64,000 bases of DNA from Tychonema sp. LEGE 06208. GTDB taxonomy: Bacteria; Cyanobacteriota; Cyanobacteriia; Cyanobacteriales; Microcoleaceae. How positions within the stretch are numbered: position 1 is the stretch's first letter; every line of letters begins with the position of its first letter. The stretch is from contig NZ_JADEWT010000003.1 of NCBI RefSeq assembly GCF_015207505.1, positions 1 to 64,000 of the forward strand, written 5' to 3'. Positions 25,688 through 39,443 of this stretch are shown piece by piece. The position numbers were made by a program, and so were the translations under genes. The notes beneath the pieces were generated by a model. It worked only from the letters and a program-made list of their open reading frames with translations, was not told the DNA's origin and searched no databases.

Positions 25688-26947
25688 ATGCTAACCATGA
25701 ATTACCGCTATCGAATCTATCCCAGCATCACTCAAGAGCAGTCGCTCAAAGAGTGGATGGATGTTTGTCGCGTTGCCTATAACTACGGGCTGCGCGAGAT
25801 TAAGGATTGGTGCAATAGCCGGAAGTGCATGGTTGACAGATGCTCCATCAGTCATGAATATATCATGGCTGCTGATATTCCTTTCCCTAGTGAAGTGAAT
25901 CAGCTTAATGCTTTGCCAAACGCTAAAAAGGTGTTTCCCCGATTGGGTGAAGTGCCAAGCCAAGTTTTGCAGCAAGCTATTAAACAACTGCACCGAGCCT
26001 GGGATGGGTTTCAAAAAGTTGGGCATGGATTTCCCAGATTTAAAAAATTTGGACAATTCAAGTCTTTGTTGTTTCCCCAATTTAAACAGAATCCAGTGCA
26101 GGGAGTACATATTGCCTTGCCCAAGTTGGGGCCCATTGCAATTAACTTGCATCGCCCGATACCGAGTGGCTTTGTAGTTAAGCAGGTTCGGATAATTAAC
26201 AAGGCTGATATTTGGTACGCTAGCATCAATATCCAATGCGATGTTAGTGTTCCCAATCCTATGCCTCATGGTCATCCAATTGGGGTAGATGTTGGGCTTT
26301 CCAAGTTTTTGGCAACTAGCGACGGAGTTCTTGTAAAGTCGCCTAAGTTCTTGAAAGTGATGCAAAGCAAGCTGAAATTGCTGCAACGCAGACTTGATCG
26401 GAAAAAGAAGCGGTCTAAAAATTACGAGAAACAACGGATCAAAGTTGCTAGACTTCACCACACAATTGATAATACCCGTAAGGATTTCCACTTCAAGCAA
26501 GCTCATGCGCTTTGTGACGCTGGTGATATGGTCTTCATGGAAGACTTGGATTACCGAATTCTTGCCAAAGGGATGCTTGGCAAACAGATGCTGGCGGAGG
26601 GTTTTGGGCAATTCCGAGCTATCACCAAGTACGTGTGCTGGAAGCGTGGTAAGTTCTTTGTGGAAGTCAGGGCCAGGAGGACTTCTCAAGAGTGTCCTGA
26701 GTGTGGTGCAACAGTTAAAAAAGACTTGAGTGTTAGAGTACATCATTGTCAAGAGTGTGGATTCATTGCCGATAGAGATGTAGCTAGTGGTCAAGTAATC
26801 AGAAATAGAGGAATAGAATTAATTAGTACGGCGGGACACGTCGGAATCCAAAACGCCTATGCAGACGGTTTGCCGGGGACTGAAGTATCTCAGTCTAGGT
26901 CAAAGTCGAAAACCCATAAGGGAACAACTAGGAAATCTTTGAAGTGA
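25688..26947 (+). CDS. tnpB: TnpB-family RNA-guided nuclease
   Basis: A 419-residue TnpB with an intact canonical RuvC site: Asp in GVDVGLSKFLATSDG, Glu in VFMEDLDYRILAKGM, and Asp in ADRDVASGQVI. The four-cysteine zinc finger is present (ECPECG...HHCQECG). The N-terminal helix-turn-helix and wedge region begin with MLTMNYRYRIYPSITQEQ. The protein should process or bind an omega RNA made from the element's right end and cut matching DNA. No tnpA accompanies it, so mobility would need a transposase from elsewhere. The ATG at 25688 follows AAGGTAGTGGA, which contains a weak ribosome binding site. Confidence 0.93.
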   Translation: MLTMNYRYRIYPSITQEQSLKEWMDVCRVAYNYGLREIKDWCNSRKCMVDRCSISHEYIMAADIPFPSEVNQLNALPNAKKVFPRLGEVPSQVLQQAIKQLHRAWDGFQKVGHGFPRFKKFGQFKSLLFPQFKQNPVQGVHIALPKLGPIAINLHRPIPSGFVVKQVRIINKADIWYASINIQCDVSVPNPMPHGHPIGVDVGLSKFLATSDGVLVKSPKFLKVMQSKLKLLQRRLDRKKKRSKNYEKQRIKVARLHHTIDNTRKDFHFKQAHALCDAGDMVFMEDLDYRILAKGMLGKQMLAEGFGQFRAITKYVCWKRGKFFVEVRARRTSQECPECGATVKKDLSVRVHHCQECGFIADRDVASGQVIRNRGIELISTAGHVGIQNAYADGLPGTEVSQSRSKSKTHKGTTRKSLK

Positions 26948-29752: not shown

Positions 29753-29806
29753 CATTTTAGATTTTAGATTTTAGATTTTAGATTTTAGATTTTAGATTTT
29801 AGATTT
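29753..29806. repeat. heptanucleotide tandem repeat (ATTTTAG)n
   Basis: About seven uninterrupted units of ATTTTAG end just before the left end of the third tnpB element. Confidence 0.88.
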
Positions 29807-29974
29807 ATCAAAAAAATGGGTTGAAAACCCCGTCCTTTTAGGACGGCTTTAATTCAAGTAGGTTGGTAAAAATTTAACTCATTGAAAAATTAAGAATTGC
29901 GACAATGCTTGAATCAAGTAAGTTTTTAGATTAGACTAAAACAGTGCACTCTTCAAATAAGAGGTGACTCAATC

Positions 29975-31070
29975 TTGCTCACAAACTACGTTTACAAACT
30001 TCGTCCAAATCAAACACAAGACTCAAAGATGTCGAACTGGGTAGATATGTTACGAAGTCACTACAATTGGTGTCTTAACGACAGAATCACCCAGTATAAC
30101 CAACAGTTCATCCAAGGAAATTACTGCTATCTTAGAACTCAAAGCGAAGTTTCGCCATTAACCTGCTCTGTCAGTAAAAATGGTGCAACAGGAAATCCTT
30201 GGAAAGACTCGAAAACCGCTTGCTCAGGTAAGACTAAGAATCCTCGTCGCAGTGCTGGCGACATTCAAATCACATCTTTGCCAGATTTGAAAACAGCTAG
30301 ACCCTGGTATAGTGGTATTGACTCAACAGTTCTACAACAGAATATTAAACGTTTAGATACTGCTTACAAGAACTTCTTTGAAGGCAGAGGTTTCCCGAAA
30401 TTCAAAAATCGGAGTAACTTTACCTCTTTTACTTTTGTAATGGGAATAAAAGTCAAAGGGAATAAAATCTATTTACCCAAATTAGGGTGGATGCGGTTCT
30501 ACAATTCACGTTCAATCCCCGATGGTTTTACTATCAAGGCTTGTGCTGTCAGGAAGCGTCAAAATGGTTGGTATGTGTCCATTAGGATAGAGAATAAGTC
30601 TGTTCCCGATTACATGGCAAAATCTCTCAAGGATGTTGTTAAAGTAATTGGATGTGACTTAGGAATTACAAAGCTCGTTCATCTATCTGATGGATATCAA
30701 ATTGAAAACCCTAATTTTTCAACATCCAAAAAAGCTAAACGCACCCTAAAAATTAGACAGAAAAGAGTTAACCGTAAAGTCAAAGGGAGCAGCAATCGCC
30801 AGAAAGCAGCTAAAAAAGTAGGGCGGTTCCATCAAAAAATCAGTGAGATGCGTCAAGCTTACCAATGGAAGGTAGCTCACAAAATTGGATCTCGAAAAAT
30901 TGATGCTATTGCATTGGAAGACTTGAATATATCTGCGATGAGGGGGTCGCTGTCGGGTAAAAGTCGATGAAAATACGGGAAGATTTCTGAAAAATGGACA
31001 ATCTAGAAAAAAAGGTTTGAACCGTTCTATTTCTGATGCAGGTTGGGGTGAATTGATTTTAAAGATTGAG
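29975..31070 (+). pseudogene. tnpB: TnpB, 5' exon (interrupted by group II intron; one-base frameshift)
   Basis: This is the first 365 codons of a canonical TnpB. The start is TTG at 29975, with AAGAGGTGA about 8 bases upstream. RuvC-I is VIGCDLGITKLVHLSDG and RuvC-II is AIALEDLNISAM. A run of five G at 30942-30946 shifts the frame: removing one G gives MRGRCRVKVDENTGRFLKNG and then QSRKKGLNRSISDAGWGE up to LILKIE, the expected continuation. As sequenced, the frame stops at 30970. The exon ends at GAG (31068-31070), where the intron begins with GTGCG. It joins the exon at 36033 in frame, giving a 461-residue protein if the extra G is ignored. Confidence 0.9.
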
Positions 31071-31700
31071 GTGCGAGTCGTTTAACCTAAAATAAGCTGA
31101 AAGGCTTGTGGGACGGTTAGCCTAACTGCTCAGACAGTTAGTGACAACTGGTTACATTTGTAGGTGAACCGCCGTGTGGCAAGTCCTACCCTCCAAGTGC
31201 AGGAGTGAAAGCATAACCCCTAGTTTAATGGGTAGCAACCAATAGGCTAAAGCGGGGTTAAAAGGCAGAACTGCTAGGAGCCGAACCCGGTAACTGTCGA
31301 GCAAGAGTCCATGCGTAGCGAAAGCAAAGATGTGTTTGAACCATCGTAATCAAAAATGGTGTAACGGCTAAGTCAATGGTGAACCCGTCGAAAAAATACG
31401 GTAAGAATCCCTGACTAACACCAAGCCAAAAGGCAAGGCTAGGGCATAAGTGGTTCTCGATCCAACTTATAAGCACCGCCCACAATCCCGGTGGAAAGCA
31501 TCACAGCTAAAGACTCAACCAATGTGTAATCGGAACGAAGTAACTCTCTTAAATCTCTGAATAGGTCGATGTTCAGTAAGTAGCTAACGAATGGTTTAAG
31601 GGAGAGGGATTGTATCAAAAGCGAATGCCTCACTGTAATGGTGTGGATATGCTGACAGATACACGGTAACTCCAAGGGAATAGAACAAGTAGCAAATCAT

Positions 31701-31911
31701 ATGTCTAATACGCTGAACAATCAGACGGTGGAATGGAAAGACATCAACTGGCGAAAGCTAGAAAGGGTGGCTTTTAAGTTGCAAAAGCGCATATTCCAAG
31801 CGAGTGAACGTGGGGATGTTAAAGCAGTTCGCAAACTTCAGAAGACCCTGATTAGGTCTTGGTCTGCAAAATGTATTGCGGTACGTAGGGTGACACAAGA
31901 TAACCAAGGTA
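31701..31911 (+). CDS. ltrA: outer-intron reverse transcriptase/maturase, N-terminal part
   Basis: Codons 1-70 of the outer intron's protein: MSNTLNNQTVEWKDINWRKL, then KLQKRIFQASERGDVKAVRK up to RRVTQDNQG, the usual N-terminus of cyanobacterial intron reverse transcriptases. The frame is cut at 31911 by the inner intron, which starts GTGCGGC. Joining 31911 to 34416 gives DNQGKNTAGVDGVKSL, the standard sequence of this family. The combined length, 211 + 1496 = 1707 bases, is exactly divisible by three. Unspliced, the protein ends in a stop at 31925 after QGSAAR. Confidence 0.92.
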
Positions 31912-32524
31912 GTGCGGCTCGTTGACGCGCCAAGGAGAAATCCGAAAGCGTCACACCTGCTGAAAGCAGGTCAATAGGGAAGGGTGGCAACACTCGAAAC
32001 CGAGATAACTTAGTTTCCGTGGAGGTGAAAGTCCTCCTTCTGTAAGTGTCCAGGTAACAGCATCACCCCCAGCTATGGAGAGGGTAGCACCGCCAGAACT
32101 GAAGCGGGGTGAAAACCGGATAAGCTACGAGCCTGAAATGTAGTGAAACCGGGAGCATCTGGGGCAGAACAGCGAAAGCGAACTCTCGTACAAACCGTCG
32201 TCATTATCAACTTGCGGAATAAGGCTAATACGCAGGGAGCGAAATAGGCTCACGGGAACGGTAGATAGCAGCTTGCCCTACTGACTATCGGCACTTACCA
32301 AAACCCGGCGGATTGAGAGGTTCTACAACCAGTACCAACGGAAACTCGGAACGAATTAAACCAGGGGAACGGCTCTCCAGAATTGGTCAAACTCTGGAGT
32401 AGTAGCTAGCGTAAGCCACCTTTGGAAGGATTGGGTCAGAAGCCAACGCCCCTCTGTAATGGAGAGGATATGCTGACAGACTCACTGCTGTGTGAAAGAT
32501 ACGTTCGCTTTAGTTCGAGTAAAG

Positions 32525-34285
32525 ATGTCCAAAACGGAGATTACATCACAAGTGGAATGGAAAAATGTGAACTGGCGGAAAGCTGAGTTTGCAGTTTTCA
32601 AGCTCCAAAAGCGGATTTATCGCGCTTCACAGCGTGGAGATGTTCAAACAGTTAGGCGGCTCCAAAAGAGTCTAGCTCAGTCCTGGTCTGCAAAACTAAT
32701 TGCCGTGCGACGGGTTACACAGGACAATAAAGGTCGAGTTACGGCGGGAGTTGACGGGATAAAAGCCTTAAAACCTCCAGCACGATTAGAACTGGCAAAA
32801 AACCTGAAAGTAAACGGGAAATCAGCACCAACTCGAAGGGTTTGGATTCCTAAACCCGGAAAGCCGGAAAAACGAGGACTCGGAATCCCAACAATTGAGG
32901 AAAGAGCAAAACAAACGCTAATCAAGCTGGCGTTAGAACCAGAATGGGAAGCACGTTTTGAATCGGAATCATACGGCTTTAGACCTGGCAGATCTTGTCA
33001 TGACGCAGTTGAAGCAATCCGAACGTACATCGCCCAAAAACCGAAGTATGTTTTGGATGCAGACATCTGTCGGTGTTTTGACAAAATAAACCATACCAAA
33101 CTGTTAGAAAAACTTAATACCTTTCCCATCTTCGAGCGTCAAATCAAAGCGTGGCTCAAAGCGGGAGTAATCGACTTCAGCAGATGGGCAGAAAGGAAGG
33201 GATTTCAAGAGACACAGGAGGGTGTTCCGCAAGGTGGTAGTATCTCACCACTTTTAACGAACATCGCGCTCCACGGTATGCAACAACGCATAGAGGCACA
33301 GTTTCCCAGCGATAAAGCAAACAGAATCCGAAATACCAAAAGGTTATTTGGAAAGGAAGTGAAAGCTCCTACGCTTATACGCTACGCGGATGACTTAGTG
33401 GTAATATGCGAAGAACTTGCCGTGGTACAACAATGTCAGCAAATTCTATCAGAATGGTTAAGCGAATTGGGGCTTGAGTTGAAACCCGAAAAAACTCGGC
33501 TAGTACATACACTAGAAGAACATGGTGGAGAAAAGCCTGGATTTAATTTTCTAGGATTTTCCATTCGCCAATACCCAGTAGGGAAACACCATTCAGGTGA
33601 AACATCGAAAGGTAAAAAGTTGGGTTTCAAAACCATCGTAAAACCCTCCAACGAAAAGCTTCAAGCTCATTACAGAAAGCTCGATAAGTACGTCGAGGAG
33701 AATAACAGCAGCAGTCAAGCTGCTCTAATCAGTTTCCTCAATCCAATCATTAGAGGATGGTGTCATTACCAATCTCCTTGGAACTCAAAGGAAACGTTCA
33801 ATAAACTCGACCACCTACTCTGGAGCAGACTGTATCGATGGGGGAAACGCCGTCACCCTAACAAAGGGAAAAAGTGGGTTGCCAGAAAATATTGGCGAAC
33901 CATCGGTAATAACAATTGGGTCTTTGCAAGCTCGAGGAAAGAGCAGGATTCCTTCAACCTCCTACTCCATGCCGCATTTCCTGCGGGTTTGAGATGGACA
34001 AAGGTACAAGGAACACGCAGCCCCTACGATGGAGACTCGATTTATTGGAGCGCCAGAATGGGCGAAAATTACAAATCCCTAGAACCGCAGAAAGCAAGAC
34101 TGCTCAAGCGGCAGAAAGGTAGATGCGCCCAATGTGGACTGAACTTTAACCCAGGTGATTCAATCGAAAAACACCACCTAAAGCCTAGAGCCAAGGGTGG
34201 AAATAATGCCGACAAAAACCTGATATTAGTCCACCTGCATTGCCACGACCAAATTCACGGGCAATCAGAAACAGAACCGCGCTGA
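32525..34285 (+). CDS. ltrA: inner-intron reverse transcriptase/maturase with HNH endonuclease
   Basis: A 586-residue intact group II intron-encoded protein. The N-terminal RT0-RT7 region includes RRVTQDNKGRVTAGVDGIKA, SYGFRPGRSCHDAVEAI, VLDADICRCFDKI, GVPQGGSISPLLTNIALHG and the catalytic RYADD (Tyr287). The maturase X domain is FLNPIIRGWCHYQ...WGKRRHPNKG. The C-terminal HNH nuclease has CAQCG and EKHHLKPRAKGGNN. It should splice and mobilise its intron by target-primed reverse transcription. The ATG at 32525 is chosen over 32492 because MSKTEITSQVEWKNVNWRK aligns with the outer protein's start. Confidence 0.95.
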   Translation: MSKTEITSQVEWKNVNWRKAEFAVFKLQKRIYRASQRGDVQTVRRLQKSLAQSWSAKLIAVRRVTQDNKGRVTAGVDGIKALKPPARLELAKNLKVNGKSAPTRRVWIPKPGKPEKRGLGIPTIEERAKQTLIKLALEPEWEARFESESYGFRPGRSCHDAVEAIRTYIAQKPKYVLDADICRCFDKINHTKLLEKLNTFPIFERQIKAWLKAGVIDFSRWAERKGFQETQEGVPQGGSISPLLTNIALHGMQQRIEAQFPSDKANRIRNTKRLFGKEVKAPTLIRYADDLVVICEELAVVQQCQQILSEWLSELGLELKPEKTRLVHTLEEHGGEKPGFNFLGFSIRQYPVGKHHSGETSKGKKLGFKTIVKPSNEKLQAHYRKLDKYVEENNSSSQAALISFLNPIIRGWCHYQSPWNSKETFNKLDHLLWSRLYRWGKRRHPNKGKKWVARKYWRTIGNNNWVFASSRKEQDSFNLLLHAAFPAGLRWTKVQGTRSPYDGDSIYWSARMGENYKSLEPQKARLLKRQKGRCAQCGLNFNPGDSIEKHHLKPRAKGGNNADKNLILVHLHCHDQIHGQSETEPR

Positions 34286-34340
34286 GGGAGTTTTCCCTTA
34301 TTGGAGATGTCACAAGCAAAGGTGACAGTCACACACTGAG

Positions 34341-34374
34341 GAGCCGAATGAATAGCGATATTCACGTTCGGTTC
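34341..34374 (+). ncRNA. group II intron domain V, inner intron
   Basis: The 34-base hairpin GAGCCGAATGAATAGCGATA...TTCACGTTCGGTTC contains the catalytic AGC triad near its 5' side and the expected two-base bulge region. It sits 42 bases before the predicted 3' splice site. Confidence 0.9.
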
Positions 34375-34415
34375 TGGAGCCGAGCAGGTAGGGCGACCTG
34401 CCTGCTTAGGTTAAC

Positions 34416-35911
34416 AAAATACGGCTGGTGTGGATGGCGTGAAATCGCTGACACCAAAGCAACGTACTAACCTTGTTGGTAAGTTAAAGTTGGAAGGCAA
34501 GGCAAAACCCACTCGTAGGGTTCATATTCCCAAACCTGGAACAGCCGAAACTAGACCATTAGGAATCCCTACAATAAGCGACCGCGCATTGCAAGCGCTA
34601 TGTAAGATGGCGTTAGAACCAGAGTGGGAGGCAAAATTTGAACCTAACTCTTATGGTTTTAGACCTGGGCGTTCCTGTCACGATGCGGTAGGAGCAATAT
34701 ATAATTGTGTTAGAAGTAAAGCCAAATATGTGCTGGATGCTGACATCGCTAAATGCTTCGACCGTATAGACCACAAAGCGTTACTCACAAAAATAGCCAC
34801 ATTCCCTACCATGAGACAGCAAGTAAAAAGTTGGCTCAAGGCAGGATACTGTGACCAAGGAAATCTCTTTCCTACTAATGAAGGTACACCACAAGGTGGG
34901 GTAATTTCTCCCTTACTTGCGAATATTGCCCTACATGGTATGGAAGCAAGAGTTATGCAGTACGCGGAAACACTAAAAGGGAAAAAACGGGATAACCGCT
35001 ATGCTCTTGGTTTAATCCGGTATGCAGATGATTTTGTGATAATCCATGAGGATTTGAACGTAGTCTTAAAGTGTAAAGAGATAATTGCTGATTGGTTGAG
35101 TGACATGGGATTGGAATTGAAACCAAGTAAAACAAGATTAACCCACACCCTTAATGAAATAGAAGGAAATGTTGGGTTTGAGTTCTTAGGGTTCCATATA
35201 CAGCAGCACAAGGTAGGAATCTACAGATGTGCAAATAACACAAATGGAACTTCACTAGGTTTTTGTACACTAATTACACCCTCAAAAGCCAAAGTCAAAA
35301 GTCATCTATCTAAGATTGCTGAAGTAATAGACGCCCATAAAACCGCCCCCCAAGCTGCTTTAATCAGTAGGCTGAATCCAATCATTAGGGGGTGGTCAAA
35401 CTATTACTCAACAGTCGTTAGCAAAAAAACCTTTAACAAGGTTGATAAACTAACATACGATAAGTTGAAAACTTGGGCAAAAAGGAGGGGAAAAGGGAAC
35501 ATCAATAAAGAAAAATACTGGAGAACAGTAGGCGATCGTAATTGGTGTTTCAGTACCGAGAATGGGTTGGAATTAAAACAGCATTCAGATGCGCCAATCG
35601 TAAGGCACATCAAAGTAAAGGGTGTTGCCACTCCATTTGATGGAAATTGGATTTATTGGAGTAAGCGTAGAGGCGAATACCCAGAAACTCCTAACAGGGT
35701 TGCATCATTAATCAAGCGTCAAAAGGGTATTTGTCCTCACTGTGGTTTGTACTTTACCAGTACAGACATTGTAGAAGTTGACCATATTAAACCAACCTCA
35801 TTAGGTGGAAATGATACTTACGAAAACTTACAACTTCTACACAAACATTGCCATGACACAAAGACAGCAACAGACGGGTCAATATGCTCTAAAGAAGGCG
35901 TTAAAACCTGA
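34416..35911 (+). CDS. ltrA: outer-intron reverse transcriptase/maturase, C-terminal part
   Basis: This is the remainder of the outer protein, beginning in frame with the 5' part as K-NTAGVDGVKSLTPKQ. It contains SYGFRPGRSCHDAVGAIY, VLDADIAKCFDRID, GTPQGGVISPLLANIALHG, catalytic YADD at 35021-35032, maturase domain LNPIIRGWSNYYSTVVSKKT, and an HNH nuclease with CPHCG, EVDHIKPTSLGGND and HCHD. All catalytic motifs are intact. It can only be translated as one protein after inner-intron splicing, because no start with a ribosome binding site lies at this exon's beginning. The full spliced protein would be 568 residues. Confidence 0.93.
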
Positions 35912-35956
35912 CAGTTGGTCTTGAATCGTATCCATAACAAGGATGGAATTATCAAG

Positions 35957-35990
35957 GAGCGGAATGATGCGAAAGTATCACGTTCCGTTC
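35957..35990 (+). ncRNA. group II intron domain V, outer intron
   Basis: The 34-base hairpin GAGCGGAATGATGCGAAAGT...ATCACGTTCCGTTC has the AGC triad and a GAAA-type tetraloop (GCGAAAGT). It is 42 bases from the 3' splice site at 36032, the same distance as in the inner intron. Confidence 0.9.
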
Positions 35991-36032
35991 TGAAGGAGAG
36001 GTAGGAGTGGTAACGCTCCTATCGACTCTAAC

Positions 36033-36323
36033 TATCTAGCTGCGAAGAAAGGAAAAATTGTAATCAAAGTCAATCCTAAACACTCAAGCCAAGAATGCCG
36101 AAATTGTGGTAACATTGACAAGTCCAACAGAGATGGAGAAAAGTTCATCTGTGTGGAGTGTGGCTATTACGAACACGCCGATATAGGTGCTGCTAAAACC
36201 ATCAGAGATCGAGCTTTGAAAATGGTACGTGGGGACTCCGCGAAACCTGGTGCTACGCACCTAAACGCCCAAAATATATCACCACGCTCAAAAAGCAAAT
36301 GTGGTGAGGCAAGGGAACCCTAG
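36033..36323 (+). pseudogene. tnpB: TnpB, 3' exon
   Basis: The last 96 codons of the interrupted TnpB: YLAAKKGKIVIKVNPKHSSQ, zinc finger ECRNCG...FICVECG, RuvC-III aspartate in HADIGAAKTIRDRA, and a basic tail ending before TAG at 36321. In frame with the 5' exon at KIE-YLA. The downstream right-end hairpin (36352-36387) is the expected omega RNA end. The protein needs intron splicing and correction of the G-run frameshift at 30942 to be made. Confidence 0.92.
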
Positions 36324-36470
36324 TAATGGGGATATTAAGGCCGTAATGTCTTAAGAATCCTCGTGCCTTAAGGTCGAGGAGTGTCAAGAAGAATTGATGA
36401 AGCTCGTGGCTTAGCGGTAACAGGCAAGTATCAGAATATTTGGGGCGATCGCTGCGGACACATATCAGCG

Positions 36471-36789
36471 GCTACACTAAATCAAGTTTGGATAAATCTG
36501 ATTCACAATGCTTTACAAGCGATGGACAATTGTGGAGTTTTCAGCATATAGCTGAGAGCTTAAAATCAGAGAATGTTCGTTAGCATCAAATATTCGCAGC
36601 AAGGGAATTGGGCCGGAGGTTTTGCCGCGCATATTTGACCCGTTTTTTACCACCAAACCCGCTGGCGAAGGCTCTGGCTGGGGATTGGATATTGTTAAGA
36701 AAGTTGTCGAAAAACATTCGGCTAAGATAGAAGTAAGATCGGCGATCGGTCAAAGGACGTTTACTGTGTCAATTTCGATCGCCATTTAG
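36471..36789 (+). pseudogene. histidine kinase C-terminal remnant
   Basis: Two pieces of an HATPase domain remain in different frames: LNQVWINLIHNALQAMDNCG (36477 onward, ended by a stop) and [20 protein letters not shown], then GLDIVKKVVEKH, to the stop at 36789. Both align with the intact kinase at 37722 ([32 protein letters not shown]). A frameshift, a stop and a Gly-Leu-Gly to Gly-Trp-Gly change show it is dead. It lies just downstream of the tnpB element's right end, which may have been inserted into the ancestral gene. Confidence 0.88.
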
Positions 36790-37413
36790 CCCGCTGTGCA
36801 CCCGAAATTATATGATGCACGACCAAAAATGCAACTTTAGACGGATGTCATTCGATTTTAGAGTTGAGATTTTGAGATTTACTTGCAATGCCGTGAATCG
36901 CCGGAGCAAATACAGGAGTCTCAATGTTTTGGCTCTAGATGATATCAAATTCTCTCTTCATCGGAATAGTAAATTCACTGTTAACTGTTGACTGTTAACA
37001 GTTAACATCATGTATGAGTGCAACCGGAATTGATAGGACAAGATTGCGTGGCACGGTATCCATTTTTGGGCGGGGTTAAAAAAATGCAAATTTAGGGGCG
37101 CGTTCTAAACCGTTATGCGCTCGGTGATTTCCAATTGTTAATTTTTTAATGAAAAATGTCAAATCAAAAATGATATTAGACGGATGTTAAACTTCGATCG
37201 CGATCGGGCTGTTGACACTGTAAGATGTCAAATTTAAAATAGTATTAATTGTCGGTTCAGAGTAACGTAAACTTTATAATCATGCTGCCTCAACCGCCGA
37301 TCGATCAACTTTCGCAATTCCGAGAGCGGGGTAATAAATAAATAAAGGAAATATTTAATTATTATAGTGTCTTAATTGCAGATTATATCTCCATTTCTAC
37401 CCTTAATTTGCTT
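36790..37413. other. intergenic region between kinase remnant and CBS-kinase gene
   Basis: No gene is seen. It contains ACTGTTA heptamers forming an inverted repeat (GTTAACTGTTGACTGTTAAC region, about 36969-37008), two copies of TAGACGGATGT (36838, 37178), and TTTTGAGA repeats near 36858. The promoter of the CBS-kinase gene is probably in 37200-37400, which is AT-rich. Confidence 0.6.
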
Positions 37414-37721: not shown

Positions 37722-39443
37722 ATGCACAATATCGAGCTTTTGCAAGAAACAGTGACCAATAAAATTCAGGAGTTAAAAGAAGTGAACGAACAATTGCAAA
37801 AAGAAGCTGTTCTGAGAAGCGAAGTAGAGGAACAACTGCGACTTTTAAATGAAAATTTAGAAGAACAAATTCAACAGCGAACTTTAGAACTAATTAACGC
37901 TAACAGTCAGTTAAAGCAGGAAATACAAGACCGCGCCACAGCAGAAGAGGAAGTCCGACGCCTGAACACCGAACTCGAACAGCGAGTGCAAGAGCGCACT
38001 GTTCAACTAGCTGCCAGCAACGAAGAATTGCAGCAAAAAATTAGCGAACGCAAATTGCTAGAAGAAAAGTTATATTTTTCTGAAACCAAAGTTCGCGGAA
38101 TTTTTGAAGCCATGACAGATATCGTTCTCGTACTCGACATTCAGGGCAACATAGAAGTTTTGCCGACCAATACAGCAGCCTTTTCTGATCCTGATTGCGA
38201 TACAGTCAGCTTGACTATAGAACATTTTTTTGATGAAGATAACCCAGATGATTGGTGGAAGTTAGTTAAGCAAGTATTAGAAACGCAAGAAACTATCAAT
38301 TTCGACTATAGCTTAACAGTAGCCGATCGCGCAATTTGGTTTTCTGCCTGCATTTCTTTGTTCTCAAAAAATGCTGTGATTTGGGTTGCTCGTAACATCA
38401 GCGACCGCAAACTAGCAGAGTCGGCGCTGCACAAAAAAAATGCGGAATTAGCTCATACGCTGCAAGAACTAAAGCGCACTCAGCAAGAACTGATTCAATC
38501 AGAAAAAATGGCAGCCCTCGGACAGTTAATTGCCGGAGTTGCCCACGAAATAAATTCTCCCTTGGGGGCGATTCGCTCCTCTGTGCAGAACATCGCCGAC
38601 TTCTGGGGCAGACAATTGCAGCATTTGCCGATATTTTTTCAGCAACTATCCCCGGAACGGCAGCAGGATTTCTTTGCCCTACTGCATAAATCAAGCGAGG
38701 AAACAGACAGGTTATCTAGTAAAGAAAAACGTCAGTTGAAAAAACTTGTGCAGCGGCAATTAGAATCAGAAGCAATTGACAACGCAGATAGCCTTGCCTG
38801 TACATTGTTAGATATTGGTATCTGCAATAACGTAGAACCTTTTTTACCTTTGTTGAAAGACCCTAAAAATCTAAATATTTTACAAATTGCCTACGAATTC
38901 GCTACAGTACAAAAAAGCACTAAAAATATTGCTACTGCGACAGATAGGGCTGCCAAAATTGTTTTTGCTTTAAAAAGCTACTCTCGTTACGACCAGTCTG
39001 GCTCCAAGGCGATCGCAAATATTACTGACGGCATTGATACCGTTTTAACCCTTTACCACTACCAAATCAAACACGGTGTAGAAGTAGTAAAAAACTATGG
39101 TACTGATTTGCCCTTTGTGCTATGCTATGCTGATGAACTAAATCAAGTCTGGACAAATTTGCTTCACAATGCTTTACAAGCGATGGGCAACAAAGGGATT
39201 TTAAAAATTGATGTAAAACACCAAAATAACACAATTTTTGTCAGTATTACCGACAGCGGCAAAGGCATTCCTCCTGAGATTATGCCAAGAATTTTTGAGC
39301 CTTTTTTTACAACTAAATCTGCGGGAGAAGGCAGCGGCTTGGGATTGGATATAGTTCACAAAATTATTGAAAAACACCAAGGTAAACTGCAAGTAGAAAG
39401 CGTGCCAGGTCAAACCAAGTTTACTGTATCTTTGCCCGTCTAA
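37722..39443 (+). CDS. sensor histidine kinase (coiled coil-PAS-HisKA-HATPase), N-terminally truncated
   Basis: A 573-residue kinase. Residues 1-125 are a long heptad-rich coiled coil ([20 protein letters not shown]), then a PAS domain (about 125-240), a HisKA with the phospho-acceptor in [13 protein letters not shown], an unusually long dimerisation region ([20 protein letters not shown]), and an HATPase with N-box [11 protein letters not shown]1 DSGKGIP and G2 GEGSGLGLD. The reading frame is open upstream to about 37665 and carries the end of a CBS domain, so the ancestral protein began with the CBS region at 37414. ATG 37722 is the first plausible start. Receiver genes follow 71 bases downstream. 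Confidence 0.88.

Follow-up and report, generated by a model that had tools for sequence, protein, structure and literature searches.

The window, a 64,000-nucleotide stretch of the cyanobacterium Tychonema sp. LEGE 06208, carries a three-level nest: a group II intron resides within a second group II intron, which in turn interrupts the tnpB gene of an IS605-type element, with boundaries that are exact to the base. The nest most likely arose when one group II intron entered a broken IS605-type tnpB and a second, broadly similar intron later inserted into the reverse transcriptase gene of the first. The order of insertion, from tnpB element to outer intron to inner intron, is read from base-exact empty sites. 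Both introns presumably belong to the chloroplast-like class.

Nest architecture

An earlier, sequence-only reading of this DNA had proposed two nested group II introns at the coordinates, with the ends and in the frames given below, and the proposal is upheld by the empty sites, by matches to the Rfam family RF00029, and by the joining of the interrupted open reading frames (ORFs). First, two uninterrupted paralogues of this tnpB exist in the same genome, at locus L011 (85% amino-acid identity over the 5' piece) and at locus L012 (81%). An alignment of L011 with the flanks of the outer intron, joined at 31070/36033, is gapless at the junction, in agreement with the proposed interruption of tnpB between the residues KIE and YLA; the L011 alignment was inspected base by base and that of L012 by coordinates only. 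Second, the covariance-model search that the sequence-only reading had called for found a domain V for each intron: RF00029 matches at 35955-36032 with 61.2 bits and at 34339-34415 with 44.2 bits, and no further group II match in the window scores at or above the gathering threshold. Third, removal of the inner intron joins 211 and 1496 nucleotides (nt) of the outer intron's ORF into 1707 nt, the length predicted earlier, which encode 568 amino acids (aa) plus a stop codon and remain open throughout.

The window is located on contig C166 (118 kb) of a 6.55 Mb genome in 232 contigs. Such a draft, and repeats of a kind that break assemblies, could suggest that the nest is an assembly chimera, an origin that we consider scarcely credible: the nest lies in the interior of its contig, the inner intron finds only partial matches elsewhere in the genome (64-85%), and the two joins are base-exact, in frame, and paired between intron and exon. 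This pairing is given below as exon-binding sites (EBS) in the intron and intron-binding sites (IBS) in the exon. The features of the nest are as follows.

29804-36388, plus strand: IS605-type tnpB element, with ends common to paralogues; the joined-flank alignments to L011 and L012 start at 29804 and stop at 36387-36388
29975-30970, plus strand: tnpB 5' ORF, 331 aa, ending prematurely (Pfam OrfB_IS605, HTH_OrfB_IS605)
30964-31070, plus strand: remainder of tnpB exon 1, in another frame (VDENTGRF..KIE)
31058-31062, plus strand: IBS2 of the outer intron
31065-31070, plus strand: IBS1 of the outer intron
31071-36032, plus strand: outer group II intron (empty site in L011, RF00029, flanks of relatives)
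31350-31354, plus strand: outer EBS2, 4 of 5 pairs with IBS2 (covariation over 35 copies)
31456-31461, plus strand: outer EBS1, 6 of 6 pairs with IBS1 (covariation)
31701-31911, plus strand: outer intron-encoded protein, part 1 (70 codons plus 1 nt)
31899-31903, plus strand: IBS2 of the inner intron
31906-31911, plus strand: IBS1 of the inner intron
31912-34415, plus strand: inner group II intron (98 of 118 related loci continuous over the site, RF00029)
32204-32208, plus strand: inner EBS2, 5 of 5 pairs
32274-32279, plus strand: inner EBS1, 5 of 6 pairs (loop set by eye, from comparison of L125-L127 and L130 and from the outer EBS1 hairpin)
32525-34285, plus strand: inner intron-encoded protein, 586 aa from ATG (RVT_N, RVT_1, GIIM, HNH)
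34339-34415, plus strand: inner domains V and VI (RF00029, 44.2 bits)
34416-35911, plus strand: outer intron-encoded protein, part 2 (RVT_1, GIIM, HNH)
35955-36032, plus strand: outer domains V and VI (RF00029, 61.2 bits)
36033-36323, plus strand: tnpB exon 2, zinc ribbon and last RuvC motif, the motif by eye (Cas12f1-like_TNB)
36329-36388, plus strand: right end of the element and inferred end of the guide RNA (omega RNA), 59 nt, 90% identical to L011

The outer intron

The outer intron starts with GTGCG at 31071 and ends with AAC at 36032. Its relatives display ends of the same kind, with GTGCG or GTGTG at the start in 38 of 40 5' flanks and AAC or AAT at the end in all 72 3' flanks. The tnpB site itself is continuous in 34 of the 42 matches listed from 61 family genomes (at least 75% identity and at least 10 residues on each side; L011 excluded), the remaining matches being fragments or short, the window's own copy included.

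The recognition of the 5' exon was analyzed in 35 distinct copies of the outer family that retain this exon, the window's copy among them, using the last six exon bases as query. The EBS1-IBS1 pairing reaches a mean of 0.82 over 34 copies, versus at most 0.48 when the exons were shuffled among copies 50 times, and each position pairs in 25 to 32 of 34 copies for IBS1 and in 28 to 32 of 35 for IBS2. The window's outer intron forms six of six IBS1 pairs and four of five IBS2 pairs, for a score of 10/11; a score of at least 10/11 is attained at 30 of 63,980 window positions. In addition, RNAalifold predicted 152 pairs, 75 of them with compensatory change, in the first ~630 bases (domains I-III) of 23 copies.

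We also considered, and rejected, the idea that the outer family is specific for tnpB, as the exons of its relatives differ among themselves. The sites used differ across the 40 5' flanks and 72 3' flanks, which makes tnpB one target among many for this family.

A degenerate relative of the outer intron is found between the remains of a different tnpB in Microcoleaceae UBA11344 (L116:5211-7365). The same locus bears three neighboring copies of the IsrR antisense RNA (RF01419; L116:9573-12685).

The inner intron and the reverse transcriptase it splits

The inner intron extends from GTGCG at 31912 to AAC at 34415. Of 118 related loci (105 sites; some loci are a single contig present in two collections), 98 match a query made of the joined flanks without interruption, while 12 of the other 20 give a match that does not span the site and eight give none. 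The exon pairing comprises five of six IBS1 and five of five IBS2 pairs (10/11), with the EBS loops placed by comparison and by eye, and the nearest relatives of the inner intron that retain a 5' end, L125-L127 and L130, share one site. A scan of viral contigs with the inner reverse transcriptase as query returned no relative.

The Pfam domains RVT_1, GIIM, and HNH are present in the inner protein and in part 2 of the outer protein. The outer ORF shows a ratio of nonsynonymous to synonymous substitution rates (dN/dS) of 0.11-0.16 against the 18 relatives listed. The sequence-only reading held that expression of the outer maturase depends on prior splicing of the inner intron. It is supported in that the full ORF becomes readable only after the inner intron is removed. 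An alternative start at 34430 would drop roughly the first 76 residues. The inner intron is located in the ORF, outside the catalytic core of the outer intron, and the outer intron could, in principle, splice with the inner one still present if a maturase came from elsewhere.

The host tnpB

The assignment of the host to the IS605 family is based on its OrfB_IS605 and zinc-ribbon domains and on element ends common to the paralogues; similar ends are found in L150-L152, L156, and L158. The tnpB ORF that begins at 29975 terminates at 30970 after 331 aa, as a result of a change of frame between ~30941 and 30966. Exon 2 is in phase with the second frame, in which the sequence then runs on to the intron. 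L011 is open through the same stretch. The frameshift lies upstream of the intron, and the ligated exons would thus yield a 331 aa product and no full-length TnpB. A functional TnpB calls for one frame over the RuvC motifs and the zinc ribbon after splicing, and this assembly does not provide it, although an error in the assembly could account for the frameshift. The element retains its right end, the inferred position of the guide RNA.

These observations leave unsupported the earlier claim that TnpB expression depends on both introns. They also make it quite improbable that the nest operates as a cascade in which splicing of the inner intron licenses the outer maturase and the latter restores a functional TnpB, so that two steps gate an RNA-guided nuclease. 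Such a cascade would fit the complete appearance of both introns, the restored frame of the outer ORF, and the presence of TnpB domains on either side of the intron, but exon 1 is frameshifted where L011 is open, and a related intron on contig C81 is a candidate source of maturase in trans that might bypass the inner step.

In the vicinity of the nest, a second, distant tnpB lies upstream (25901-26584; ~37% identity, 422 aa open frame). By eye, a short tandem repeat of TTTTAGA-like units immediately precedes the left end of the element (29756-29806), and a sequence resembling the C-terminal part of a histidine kinase (36420-36790) adjoins the element ahead of an ORF at 37722-39443.

Proposed splicing of the nest

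If both introns are active, the inner maturase would excise the inner intron from a single transcript, restoring the ORF of the outer maturase, which would then remove the outer intron and bring the two tnpB exons together. Owing to the frameshift, the rejoined transcript would encode a truncated TnpB and carry the 3' end where a guide RNA would be expected, and would not encode an active nuclease. For these introns, the genes for TnpB and for reverse transcriptases are probably multicopy, expendable, and moving landing sites, as proposed for the introns of Thermosynechococcus.

Several observations weigh against this account. Base 7 of the outer intron is atypical of its family and disrupts a pair that 22 of 23 copies retain, which may point to decay. 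One of the inner EBS1 pairs is mismatched, and a score of at least 10/11 is reached at 21 of 63,980 window positions, which makes the inner pairing supporting evidence only. The inner intron is also without close relatives (the best being ~66% over 1.2 kb), and its structure is consequently less well tested. The possible assembly error in tnpB belongs here as well. The broken host gene and the change at position 7, together with the lack of a close copy of either intron elsewhere in the genome, would suit a pair of dead relics in which no splicing occurs. We consider this unlikely, since neither long ORF is interrupted by a stop, domain V and the exon pairing are retained, and the dN/dS of the outer ORF is 0.11-0.16. 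Successive invasion of a tnpB, now broken, by two introns remains our preferred account.

tnpB as a recurrent intron host

We asked how often introns abut tnpB using 180 intron loci that had been selected by reverse-transcriptase similarity and not by tnpB. A covariance model of domains V-VI gave 204 matches, of which 181 plus the two from the window were used; these intron 3' ends amount to 171 that are distinct by their 3' exon, 169 of them outside the window. Adjacent tnpB was scored with a TnpB profile built from 45 sequences, the criterion being a stop-free piece directly abutting the intron. Fifteen of the 169 insertions outside the window abut such a piece: four have tnpB on both sides (L095, L111, L113, and L189), four on the 5' side only (L107, L112, L136, and L202), and seven on the 3' side only (L098, L101, L123, L131, L190, L212, and L214). 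The one-sided cases are weaker: L214 has nearly the entire profile downstream (from residue 12), the piece in L202 ends at 375 of 409, and the 3' exon of L112 is unlike tnpB. In the two-sided cases, the phases of the two pieces agree in five of five, window included, and by eye also in L101, L107, and L123.

Away from introns, tnpB covers 3,803 of 433,914 bases (0.88%) of the same loci. At this background, the binomial chance of at least 15 of 169 is 4e-11, and it becomes 3e-7 if related cases are counted once (11 of 165). A random-position control under the 3' rule gave 34 of 2,500 versus 11 of 169 insertions (2e-5). Overall, insertions abutting tnpB are enriched ~5-10 times over background, with the insertions partly non-independent: the introns are 95% alike between L189 and L190, 83% between L107 and L112, and 82% between L123 and L212.

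A preference for tnpB over other transposases is not shown. Genome counts are 32 for tnpB, 6 for DDE_Tnp_1, and 7 for DDE_3. In a Pfam tally of 3' exons, no DDE transposase family is found among the 25 of 83 families listed.

The sequence-only reading was not aware of any twintron (an intron within an intron) hosted by the gene of an RNA-guided nuclease. The novelty of tnpB as a host is diminished by the 15 insertions and by published introns in an IS200-family element of Thermosynechococcus; that introns land repeatedly in elements of the IS200/IS605 type is known in kind, although the published description does not name tnpB as the gene hit. In the open-licence literature, taken mostly at the level of titles and the beginnings of abstracts, we met no description of a group II intron inside tnpB.

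A broader proposal is that tnpB is a preferred and repeatedly invaded host of cyanobacterial group II introns, some lineages of which have become specialized for conserved tnpB sites, making them a group II counterpart of the IStron. We put this forward tentatively and incline somewhat against it. Candidate specialized sites lie close to the N-terminus (L123 and L212), around profile residue 340 (L189 and L190), and beside the last RuvC aspartate (L107). If the proposal is true, splicing preserves expression of the RNA-guided nuclease or, failing that, of its guide RNA.

Nested introns in other genomes

When 105 3' exon pieces are tallied by Pfam family, reverse transcriptases come out as the most frequent host, with eight members that include the window's inner intron. 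The closest parallel to the inner insertion comes from Crinalium epipsammum PCC 9333, where a related reverse transcriptase on plasmid pCRI9333.04 (L179, 1501-4468) is split by an ORF-less intron of 949 nt; the insertion falls in the glycine codon that is also hit in the window, 2 nt away. The two inner introns have in common a near-identical landing spot in a related reverse transcriptase but differ in that the Crinalium intron lacks an ORF and resembles that of the window in short stretches only. The Crinalium twintron is annotated as two proteins. A second copy, L186, lies on the 5.3 Mb contig of the genome to which this plasmid belongs. The inner introns of L179 and L186 are 99.9% identical, whereas the whole 2.3 kb alignment, inner intron included, is 90.6% identical, which indicates that the outer parts are less alike. 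Identical inner introns within diverged outer ones were taken as recent independent insertions in the available part of the work of Mohr et al. 2010 (PMC2882425).

A third type of inner intron, with its own reverse transcriptase (41% identity), occupies this codon in L210, which comes from another genome of the window's genus; the 3' end of this intron is that of the model, shifted a few bases by eye to fit the frame. The 3' end of L141 resembles that of L210 but looks degenerate. A second landing spot, FRPG^RSC at residues 155/156, is used in L099 (1051-3579), L096 (91), and L134 (252, minus strand), the last in a more distant reverse transcriptase; the 5' exon is seen for L099 only.

Across the phylum, a search for the nest pattern among 386 genomes, many of them distant, returned the window only. 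A looser pattern was found in five of 388 genomes of the order, namely that of the window, that of Crinalium (G458, in two places), and three with L181, L182, and L185. We attribute these last three to chance, since they show no upstream reverse transcriptase; a reversed control pattern matched three times.

A nest of a different kind, in which domain I of a related intron begins immediately after the 3' end of an outer-type intron, was observed in L032 (1-203), L089, L099 (124-203), and L137.

Comparison with known systems

In Thermosynechococcus elongatus, twintrons are described in which one intron occupies a conserved site in the ORF of another, and three introns of the F4 family share a conserved insertion site in the IS200-family element ISEL1, with the gene hit not stated there; preferential insertion into introns and insertion elements is named as a route of spreading (PMC2882425). 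The window shares with this system both an intron in an intron ORF and an insertion element as host. In contrast, the inner introns of Thermosynechococcus are ORF-less and sit between two alternative start codons, which allows translation of the outer protein from the second start even if no splicing occurs, whereas the window's inner intron has its own reverse transcriptase, is inserted 70 codons into the ORF, and is part of three levels stacked at one place.

Tery_4732 of Trichodesmium erythraeum contains a group II twintron of ~5.4 kb in which both introns have their own ORF and sequential splicing was shown; in 2015 it was called the only known bacterial twintron in a protein gene (PMC4649490). 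It resembles the window as a cyanobacterial twintron in a protein-coding gene with an ORF in each intron. There, the inner intron is inserted into domain I of its host intron and the mRNA is putatively functional, while here the inner intron is inserted into the reverse-transcriptase ORF and the host tnpB is frameshifted. In the fungus Chaetomium thermophilum, a group II intron lies in the homing-endonuclease ORF of a group I intron (PMC4801052), and expression of the outer-encoded protein is likewise controlled by a nested intron; the setting differs in being a fungal mitochondrion, with a group I outer intron and an endonuclease instead of a reverse transcriptase.

IStrons are linked with tnpB. 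They combine a group I intron with an IS element (PMC4227781) and, like the nest, couple a self-splicing intron to a transposable element. The intron of an IStron is, however, of group I and part of the element, in contrast to the group II introns inside the tnpB gene of the window, where only group II and tRNA families score at or above the gathering score; the nest is therefore not an IStron. A further report (PMC7923331), considered as a precedent, was set aside: in the part available, tnpB lies beside, and not inside, the integron array with the intron. One survey pipeline is described as unable to detect the outer introns of twintrons (PMC8919778), which may be one reason that such cases were missed.

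Implications

Bacterial twintrons in protein genes have rarely been published, and in the present one the order of insertion can be read from empty sites. The analysis also brings out two patterns open to large-scale testing: in several cyanobacteria, group II introns lie against or within tnpB, and intron reverse transcriptases have a pair of landing spots for other introns, at codon 70/71 and at FRPG-RSC. Not in this broken copy, but within an intact tnpB, splicing could constitute a layer of control over an RNA-guided nuclease.

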